Assembly: GCA_002898295.1 (NCBI GenBank)
Contig: BEHX01000003.1
Coordinates: 1 to 64,000 of the forward strand
From: a bacterium HR21
Lineage (GTDB): Bacteria > Bacteroidota > Ignavibacteria > Kapaibacteriales > HRBIN21
DNA length: 64,000 bases
Direction: 5' to 3'
The notes below the pieces were generated by a model. The model saw only the letters and a list, made by a program, of their open reading frames with translations, ran no database searches and was not told the DNA's origin. The translations under genes were made by a program, and so were the position numbers. Positions 22,281-24,641 of this stretch are shown one piece after another; position 1 is the stretch's first letter; every line of letters begins with the position of its first letter.

Positions 22281-22943
22281 TCAGTACCGGCGAATGAGCC
22301 CAACGACATACCCGAATACCATCAGGTCCGGATCAGGGGGCTGGAAGCGGATCGGTGCGGTGTGACGCGCCGCGGCGCGGAGTTCCCATCCAGTCGGTGT
22401 ACGGTGAAGGGAGCGCACCACCCATGCACTATTGACCCATGCCACAGCCAGCTGCTCTGCTTCGAGCGCCTCTGATCGGCGAGCAATGACAATATCGCCT
22501 GCACCGATTCCCACCGCACGGAGCCCATCGTCGGGAACAACCAGAGCGAAAAGCTCCTGTTCGGGAAAGAGCGTTGGGTCAACGAAGAGATACCCCTGCG
22601 GCAGACGGAGCGCCTGCTGCGGCTCGAGTACAATACCCGAGCGCAGGAGCGGAACCGATCGACCTTGAGGAACCTGGTACGGTCCCCCAAGACCACCGAG
22701 CGCTTTCTCAGTCAACTGCAGAGTTCGCGCTTGCCCGCGTCCTCGACGCCGAATGTACCCCTTCCGCTCCAGCGCCTTGAGCAGTTCATGAACGGCATTC
22801 GGAGAGCGACAGCCCAGTGCCCGGCAGAGCTCCTGGACCGTCGGAGGAAAACCCTGCTGAGCAATGCTTTCGACAATGTATCGGAGTGCCTGGAGCTGCC
22901 GTCGCGTGAGTCCTCCGACATACTCTCGCTCAGCCCACCGCAT
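22281..22943 (-). CDS. lexA: LexA-family repressor with degenerate (non-catalytic) S24 domain
   Basis: 220 residues from the ATG at 22943 (GTG 22964 and TTG 22976 are alternatives). Residues 1-75 form the LexA winged helix (LTRRQLQALRYIVE, GFPPTVQELCRALGCRSPNAVHELLKALERKGYIRR). Residues about 90-220 align with the S24 peptidase dimerisation domain (YLFVDPTLF, GIGAGDIVIARR, FGYVVGLIRR). The catalytic Ser position (E. coli LexA S119) is Gly140 in PDDGL, the Lys position (K156) is Arg177 in WVVRSL, and the Ala-Gly cleavage site is replaced by RSG. So it should bind DNA and dimerise but not self-cleave. Two palindromic operators overlap its own promoter. Use of the symbol rests on homology, not on proven SOS function. 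Confidence 0.85.
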   Translation of the reverse strand: MRWAEREYVGGLTRRQLQALRYIVESIAQQGFPPTVQELCRALGCRSPNAVHELLKALERKGYIRRRGRGQARTLQLTEKALGGLGGPYQVPQGRSVPLLRSGIVLEPQQALRLPQGYLFVDPTLFPEQELFALVVPDDGLRAVGIGAGDIVIARRSEALEAEQLAVAWVNSAWVVRSLHRTPTGWELRAAARHTAPIRFQPPDPDLMVFGYVVGLIRRY

Positions 22944-22973: not shown

Positions 22974-22981
22974 CAAAACTA
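22974..22981 (-). promoter_or_regulatory. TAGTTTTG promoter -7 element for lexA
   Basis: Minus-strand perfect TAnnTTTG, 31 bases before the ATG at 22943. Its first base is also the first base of operator 1, so repressor binding would block it. Confidence 0.6.
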
Positions 22982-22998
22982 CTGAAAGCCTGTTCAGT
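22981..22998. promoter_or_regulatory. LexA-type operator 1 (ACTGAA-N6-TTCAGT)
   Basis: An exact inverted repeat with 6-base arms and a 6-base spacer. It lies directly upstream of and overlapping the lexA -7 element. Binding by the neighbouring LexA-like protein is inferred from position and symmetry. Confidence 0.7.
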
Positions 22999-23011: not shown

Positions 23012-23029
23012 CCTGAAAATCTATTCAGT
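23012..23029. promoter_or_regulatory. LexA-type operator 2 (CCTGAA-N6-TTCAGT)
   Basis: The same palindrome with one outer mismatch. Its centre is 31 bp from that of operator 1, close to three helical turns, so both face the same side of the DNA. Confidence 0.65.
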
Positions 23030-23110
23030 CTGGCGCGTAGAAGAGGGTGGAGGCGGGAGAGGAAGTAGTTGTAAACATGGAATAACGGCAGCTTGCAGCA
23101 TCGAAATCGG

Positions 23111-23222: not shown

Positions 23223-23247
23223 TGGGAGAAAGTGGGAGAAGCTCCCA
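23223..23247 (+). promoter_or_regulatory. MraZ-box cluster upstream of mraZ
   Basis: TGGGA, 5 bases, TGGGA, 5 bases, then TCCCA (the inverted form). MraZ is known to bind TGGGN repeats with 5-base spacers ahead of its own gene. The cluster ends 42 bases before the mraZ GTG. The third repeat being inverted is unusual. Confidence 0.65.
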
Positions 23248-23289: not shown

Positions 23290-23736
23290 GTGGCATTTTT
23301 CAAAGGACAGGAGACCTACTCACTCGACAGCAAGGGACGGGTGAGTCTGCCGGCGAAGATGCGGCGGAGTCTCACGCCCGAGGCACAGGATACCTTCATT
23401 GTGACCCGCGGCGTTGATCGCTGTATTGTTGCCTACCCACTCGATGAGTGGCGCAAGTACGAAGAACGCTTTGCCCGGCTCAACCAGTACAATGAGCAGG
23501 AACGCTTCTTCCTGCGCATGATTCTGGCATGGAGCGAAGAAGTTCAGCTCGATGCACAGCAGCGGTTGATGTTGCCGCGTCGGCATCTGGAATTTGCCGG
23601 CATTACGAACAAAGTGACCATCGTCGGCGTGGTGGACCACATCGAGTTCTGGAATCCCGAGGAATTCGAGCGCTACCTGGCTGGCTTTGCACAATCGTAC
23701 GAAGAGGTTGCAGCCCATGTTATGCGCTCCTCATGA
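23290..23736 (+). CDS. mraZ: transcriptional regulator MraZ
   Basis: 148 residues from the GTG at 23290. MraZ is a DNA-binding dodecamer of two AbrB/SpoVT-like repeats that controls the division and cell-wall (dcw) cluster. Both repeats show the D-x-K/Q-x-R signature: YSLDSKGRVSLPAKMR near residue 12 and VQLDAQQRLMLPRRHL near residue 88. The family length is about 140-150. Upstream TGGGA repeats are its expected target. The stop overlaps the rsmH start (ATGA). A longer frame exists upstream but lacks family similarity. Confidence 0.94.
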   Translation: MAFFKGQETYSLDSKGRVSLPAKMRRSLTPEAQDTFIVTRGVDRCIVAYPLDEWRKYEERFARLNQYNEQERFFLRMILAWSEEVQLDAQQRLMLPRRHLEFAGITNKVTIVGVVDHIEFWNPEEFERYLAGFAQSYEEVAAHVMRSS

Positions 23737-24641
23737 CCGAAGCGGGAACATCGGTGCCATACCATGTGCCGGTCATGGTAGGCGAGGTACTCCACTTCTG
23801 GTTGACCTCGCCCGATGGGATCTACGTGGATGGGACCATCGGCGGGGGTGGGCACACAGCAGCGCTGCTCGAGCACCTCTCACCGAAAGGGCTGGTTATT
23901 GGACTGGATGCCGACCCGGAAGCCATTGCATACTGCCAGCAGCGGTTTGCTCGGGAGCTCACGCAGGGGCGTCTTCGCCTGCTGCGGGCGAACTTTCGGC
24001 AGACATGCGATCTCATGCGCGACATGTGGGGGAAGGTGCAGGGCTTCCTGCTGGATCTGGGAGTGTCGTGGCATCAGGTAGATACCCCCGAGCGGGGGTT
24101 CTCCTTCCGAGCGCGCGGACCTCTGGACATGCGCTTCGGTCCCGACACTCTGCAGACCGCGGAAGCCCTGCTGGCTGCAGCATCGGAGGAAGAGCTCGCG
24201 TCGCTCCTCCGCCGCTATGGCGAGGAGCCCCGCGCACGGGCGATCGCCCGCCGGATTGTGCAGCGCCGGCGGAGCGTCCCGGTGCGCACCACGGCTGACC
24301 TTCGGGCGGTGGTGGAAGAGGTTGTCCCTCCTCCCCACCGCCTGAAGTCCTTAGCCCGCGTCTTCCAAGCCCTCCGGATTGCCGTCAACGATGAGCTCGG
24401 AGCATTACAGGAGGCGCTCGCATGCGCCCCTCTGCTCCTGGCTCCTGGCGGACGGCTCGTCGTCCTCAGCTACCACTCCCTGGAGGACCGGCTTGTCAAA
24501 GAGTTCCTGCGCCGACAATCAACAAGTCCAGTGCCAACCTTCCGGACTCTGACGCCCAAACCCCTCCGCCCCTCAGCGGAGGAAGTGCAGCGCAATCCCC
24601 GCGCTCGCAGCGCTCGGCTACGCGCCGCCGAACGGCTCTGA
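23733..24641 (+). CDS. rsmH: 16S rRNA (cytosine1402-N4)-methyltransferase
   Basis: 302 residues from the ATG at 23733. It methylates N4 of C1402 in 16S rRNA in the P site. YHVPVMVGEVL opens the protein, DGTIGGGGHTAALL is the SAM-binding motif, GFLLDLGVSWHQVDTPERGFSF and DMRF are the signature blocks, and SYHSLEDRLVKEF closes the core. It normally precedes ftsL and ftsI in the dcw cluster, but here the next gene lies on the opposite strand and the two coding ends overlap by 24 bases. The cluster is therefore reduced to mraZ-rsmH at this site. Confidence 0.96.
   Translation: MTEAGTSVPYHVPVMVGEVLHFWLTSPDGIYVDGTIGGGGHTAALLEHLSPKGLVIGLDADPEAIAYCQQRFARELTQGRLRLLRANFRQTCDLMRDMWGKVQGFLLDLGVSWHQVDTPERGFSFRARGPLDMRFGPDTLQTAEALLAAASEEELASLLRRYGEEPRARAIARRIVQRRRSVPVRTTADLRAVVEEVVPPPHRLKSLARVFQALRIAVNDELGALQEALACAPLLLAPGGRLVVLSYHSLEDRLVKEFLRRQSTSPVPTFRTLTPKPLRPSAEEVQRNPRARSARLRAAERL

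Follow-up and report, generated by a model that had tools for sequence, protein, structure and literature searches.

A clade of putatively non-cleavable LexA paralogues in Candidatus Kapabacteria, with mraZ-rsmH as its predicted target

What does a LexA-like protein control, and how could its control be relieved, when the residues needed for self-cleavage are gone? The question is raised by an open reading frame in positions 1 to 64,000 of contig BEHX01000003.1 of bacterium HR21 (assembly GCA_002898295.1); this whole 64,000-nucleotide stretch is referred to here as the window. A sequence-only reading had described the encoded protein as a LexA repressor that had lost its self-cleavage residues. 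We consider it likely that this protease-dead LexA acts through predicted operator binding to repress the gene that encodes it and to control the divergent operon mraZ-rsmH, not an SOS response. The features of the locus are collected in Table 1.

Table 1. Features of the lexA-like/mraZ-rsmH locus, in window coordinates
Feature	Position	Strand	Basis or remark
LexA-like regulator, putatively non-cleavable, 220 aa: winged helix aa 11-73 and S24-fold domain with Gly140/Arg177	22281..22943	-	Pfam, NCBIfam, PDB, AlphaFold/Foldseek
TAGTTTTG, putative -7 element of the lexA-like gene promoter, abutting operator 1	22974..22981	-	read from sequence
Operator 1 (lexA-proximal), CTGAA-N6-TTCAG, CTGAAAGCCTGTTCAG	22982..22997	.	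exact palindrome, 16 bp
Operator 2, CTGAA-N6-TTCAG, CTGAAAATCTATTCAG	23013..23028	.	exact palindrome, 16 bp; the pair recurs upstream of mraZ in relatives
TGTAAACATGGAATAACGGCA, conserved element and candidate core promoter of mraZ	23070..23090	+	conserved in about eight families
Pair of TGGGAGA repeats ahead of mraZ, 10 bp apart	23223..23239	+	read from sequence; relatives also have repeats ahead of mraZ
mraZ, starting with GTG and transcribed away from the lexA-like gene	23290..23736	+	PF02381, E 1e-30
rsmH (mraW), two-gene operon with mraZ	23733..24641	+	PF01795, E 2.6e-90

The reading frame, whose ATG start is preceded by an AGGA Shine-Dalgarno sequence, encodes a full-length LexA-fold protein. 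The 63-residue N-terminal winged helix, which had been called intact, matches LexA_DNA_bind (PF01726) with an E value of 1.7e-20 (73 bits, cut-off 23.7), and its recognition helix resembles that of E. coli LexA. The C-terminal half matches Peptidase_S24 (PF00717; E 2.7e-8, 33.9 bits, cut-off 23.3). The score against the NCBIfam lexA equivalog model TIGR00498 was 104.4 bits, slightly below the cut-off of 110.95, and the top PDB sequence matches were all LexA. An AlphaFold model was obtained with 7 related sequences as input (mean pLDDT 81); when it was searched with Foldseek, LexA structures ranked first (3k2z, E 1.3e-16; 1jhf, E 1.8e-16). The profile comparison and structure prediction that had been proposed as checks thus bore out the S24 fold.

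Alignment with E. coli LexA places Gly140 (PDDGL) at the catalytic Ser119 and Arg177 (VVRSL) at Lys156, in agreement with the earlier assignments, and the Ser-Lys dyad that defines catalytic LexA is therefore absent. The cleavage site had been given as RSG. The absence of Ala-Gly was upheld, but the residues that align with Ala84-Gly85 are Val-Leu in RSGIVLEP, not RSG, so the aligned position has neither an Ala-Gly nor a Cys-Gly scissile bond, and no Ala-Gly occurs near it. Lysines are found only at positions 56, 61 and 80. The C-terminal domain therefore offers no alternative lysine as catalytic base, the kind of residue that had been named as able to overturn the claim. With Ser, Lys and Ala-Gly gone and no lysine in that domain, the prediction that the protein does not undergo RecA-driven autoproteolysis is sustained.

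Thirty homologues show both the replacement of Lys by Arg and the loss of GDSM, so neither is the product of chance or error. In six families of the order every homologue has Arg in place of Lys, and the Ser is missing from all except one; L017 (genome G024, one of the 30) and L144 still show a Ser letter at the catalytic position. Arg177 does not vary among 19 aligned sequences, and Asp138 hardly does. AT-rich, lysine-rich members also retain the Arg, which argues that the change is not simply an effect of G+C content. Retention of Ser in relatives such as L017 lends some colour to the idea that a shifted active site has restored self-cleavage. We regard this as highly improbable, since L017 itself has Arg in place of Lys, and the window protein has neither a lysine in its C-terminal domain nor an Ala-Gly near the site.

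In a tree of 45 proteins the 30 non-cleavable proteins form a single branch (support 100/99), and a quick tree built without the catalytic and cleavage columns recovered the clade again (SH-aLRT 99). Throughout the class, LexA proteins of the canonical kind (Ala-Gly, GDSM, VK) form a lineage apart, and one genome (G066) has both types. The window protein belongs to the non-cleavable DD[GA]M/Arg clade, and the operator pair described below lies upstream of its mraZ. We conclude that Candidatus Kapabacteria and related lineages hold a well-supported clade of non-cleavable LexA paralogues, not decayed LexA. The picture of the window protein as a LexA deprived of its self-cleavage residues accordingly gives way to that of an ancient, separate paralogue with a conserved target of its own, mraZ-rsmH. 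Loss of the catalytic residues, and loss of the gene from some lineages, could also be expected if this were the decaying relic of an SOS repressor gene. Such decay is very hard to reconcile with reading frames that are intact in about 30 genomes, with invariant Arg and other residues, with conserved operators and with one deep clade.

The gene that follows rsmH in the window is convergent, so the operon consists of mraZ and rsmH only. A lexA-like gene divergent from mraZ-rsmH was also found in families f1, f3, f4, f16 and f23, and the records with this arrangement in an mraZ alignment search were Candidatus Kapabacteria and Bacteroidota assemblies. In G066 it is the non-cleavable gene that adjoins mraZ; no mraZ was found next to the canonical lexA of this genome. 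Among 61 genomes, the lexA-like gene is almost restricted to those that carry mraZ, being present in 27 of these 47 versus 1 of the 14 others. Both genes are absent from G041, G051 and families f2 and f6.

Targets in the window genome were sought by pattern search and in stretches of sequence. Exact CTGAA-N6-TTCAG occurs twice in the genome, both times between the lexA-like gene and mraZ and with 31 bp from one operator to the other; a reversed-pattern control gave 0 sites. A wider regulon was rejected for this genome, in which sites with one mismatch allowed were as numerous as in the control. The element that abuts operator 1 matches TAnnTTTG, the -7 promoter consensus of Bacteroidota, and a -7-like element directly after the proximal box is also seen in relatives. 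The conserved element between the operators and mraZ fits neither the sigma-70 nor the TAnnTTTG consensus, and a scan for sigma-70 promoters found none; this element may be the mraZ promoter. The TGGGAGA repeats we take to be probable MraZ autoregulatory boxes. An Rfam search of the region returned nothing credible, a mir-6511 match being far below the gathering score.

If the palindromes are bound by the lexA-like protein, they should follow its gene. In families f5, f7 and f10 and in parts of f9 and f13 the lexA-like gene lies elsewhere, yet one or two boxes remain upstream of mraZ; in G036 the pair stays at mraZ while the lexA-like gene is on a different contig. In f5 and G028 the boxes are preceded by a co-directional gene, so mraZ is the sole gene that starts downstream of them. 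Across 45 genomes with mraZ, the box pair was found upstream of mraZ in 22 of the 27 that have a lexA-like gene. When the gene is not adjacent the pair is present in 13 of 18 genomes, versus 0 of 18 without the gene (Fisher p 7e-6), a comparison between genomes that, we stress, are related and not independent. An independent-pairs test gave 3 supported pairs, of which about 2 agree and none disagrees, a result that is not significant. All 13,312 five-base dyads were also scanned in the non-adjacent set without the motif being supplied. The top two were ACTGA-N8-TCAGT (10/18 vs 0/18) and CTGAA-N6-TTCAG (8/18 vs 0/18), and 30 shuffled sets never exceeded 3. The distance from the boxes to the start codon of mraZ is 250-440 bp, and the two boxes of a pair are only ever 31, 40, 41 or 42 bp apart, about three and four helical turns.

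A clear consensus pair is missing from five lexA-positive genomes (G011, G013, G021, G047 and G048), and half a box is present in G057, a possible lexA-negative exception whose genome is 92% complete. In genus g9 the recognition helix differs (STRTAYD) and a different palindrome pair, CCAAACAWWTWATTGG, is found at the same place. At L177 and L238 (G013 and G048), from a genus with the changed recognition helix, the altered palindromes upstream of mraZ are about 30 bp apart. Exact sites exceed the control in the large f7 genomes, and the regulon may therefore be wider there. The extra exact sites that were read in f4 genomes were rejected as targets: they lie within genes (ComEC, atpD, methylase), among mobile genes or in dispersed repeats. 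Exact boxes at L102 and L103 (G031) are within a dispersed palindromic repeat (frame HAELVSAS) and are not promoter sites.

These observations bear on whether another regulator binds CTGAA-N6-TTCAG, the lexA-like gene being merely a frequent neighbour of mraZ. Binding by the lexA-like protein is a prediction from sequence, and MraZ and others likewise act on the mraZ promoter in bacteria. We nevertheless think a different regulator unlikely, because the boxes track the presence of the lexA-like gene even where the two are unlinked, because the operator has the E. coli-like form CTG-N10-CAG and is matched by an E. coli-like recognition helix, and because in genus g9 helix and palindromes both differ.

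We then consider whether the protein governs an SOS response, which had been doubted in the sequence-only reading. Apart from this protein, the window genome (1.83 Mb, 95% complete) encodes neither a LexA DNA-binding domain above the family cut-off nor an S24 domain; the second, intact LexA that had been suggested for search was thus not found. No SOS-type S24 regulator or UmuD-like S24 protein was found in this genome (G000), though recA is present. One S24 protein each is likewise encoded by four congeneric genomes (98-100% complete), and no canonical SOS regulator was found in the genus. No operator box was seen upstream of recA in the region checked, which is approximate because the recA start codon in the window genome is unsettled. 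Judged by sequence, control of SOS genes is not found, exact boxes being confined to mraZ and the lexA-like gene. The doubt is thus supported, and the genus may lack an SOS response.

An SOS-like damage response could still persist if the protein were relieved by means other than self-cleavage, such as an ATP-dependent protease or binding of RecA that causes no cleavage, and if mraZ were its damage-inducible target. Its LexA ancestry is in keeping with this, as are two published cases. In vitro, the cleavable LexA of B. subtilis binds an mraZ site of gut Gram-positives that comes from gut metagenomes (PMC3998124), and the E. coli dcw cluster carries SOS boxes for LexA (PMC3265435). What these cases share with the window is a LexA-family protein at mraZ or the dcw cluster; there, however, a cleavable SOS LexA has mraZ as one of many targets, whereas the window protein is predicted to be a dedicated, non-cleavable regulator. 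Since the recA region checked has no box, there is no genome-wide set of sites, the catalytic and cleavage residues are gone throughout the clade and the genus has yielded no canonical SOS regulator, we judge a persisting damage response to be improbable.

For the preferred reading, control of its own gene and of mraZ-rsmH, we propose the following mechanism. The S24 domain, without self-cleavage, would have been retained for its fold, most likely for dimerization. The dimeric protein would bind, side by side, to the tandem palindromes that lie between mraZ and the lexA-like gene. The proximal operator abuts the -7 element of the lexA-like promoter, so that bound protein should block this promoter in negative autoregulation. 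The operator pair, spaced by whole helical turns, would also control the divergent mraZ-rsmH, probably by repression, with activation as the alternative. Release would come by a route other than RecA-driven cleavage, for which protein level, a ligand, modification or another protease are candidates.

The window protein shares with canonical LexA (TIGR00498; E. coli, T. maritima) the winged helix, the S24 fold, the length, a 16-bp CTG-N10-CAG palindromic operator and predicted autoregulation. It differs in lacking the Ser-Lys dyad, the Ala-Gly bond and any SOS regulon that we could find, in having mraZ-rsmH as its predicted target, and in coming from a clade of its own, which is found together with canonical LexA in G066. 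A close parallel is LexA of Synechocystis sp. PCC 6803, which has lost the catalytic Ser and Ala-Gly and is not an SOS repressor; graded control by phosphorylation has been proposed for it (PMC3091678; PMC7567884). Both losses are common to the two proteins, and so, probably, is the absence of SOS repression. The cyanobacterial change, however, is reported for one orthologue with a broad stress regulon, whereas the window type is an ancient paralogue clade in which Lys is also replaced and which has one main conserved target. The SOS response of Bacteroidetes is controlled by CI-like S24 proteins that have a CI-type HTH_3 domain and intact Ala-Gly and Ser-Lys (PMC8565304). These are S24-family regulators from the same broad phylum, but the window protein, with its LexA-type winged helix and dead site, is not one of them; within the order, f2 and f9 have similar proteins and the genus of the window does not. 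PdhR, a pyruvate-responsive factor that acts at the E. coli mraZ promoter (PMC3265435), is likewise a transcription factor at mraZ but is not a relative of LexA. Non-cleavable LexA and LexA sites at mraZ are thus each already known. Their combination in a dedicated, ancient non-cleavable paralogue tied to mraZ was not found in the literature searched, which lay largely outside the subscription journals.

With about even confidence, we suggest that an SOS repressor was duplicated and lost its protease switch before Kapabacteria and their relatives diverged, and became a dedicated regulator of mraZ-rsmH. Division-associated expression would thereby be coupled to a signal other than LexA cleavage, and some lineages would be left without LexA-type SOS control. 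The clade represents an old, widespread and apparently vertically kept LexA that works without cleavage and has one predicted, testable target. It also offers a possible upstream regulator for mraZ, whose role in division remains debated. A 'lexA' annotation in Kapabacteria and Ignavibacteria need not imply an SOS response, and some of these genomes may be without any LexA-type response to DNA damage.
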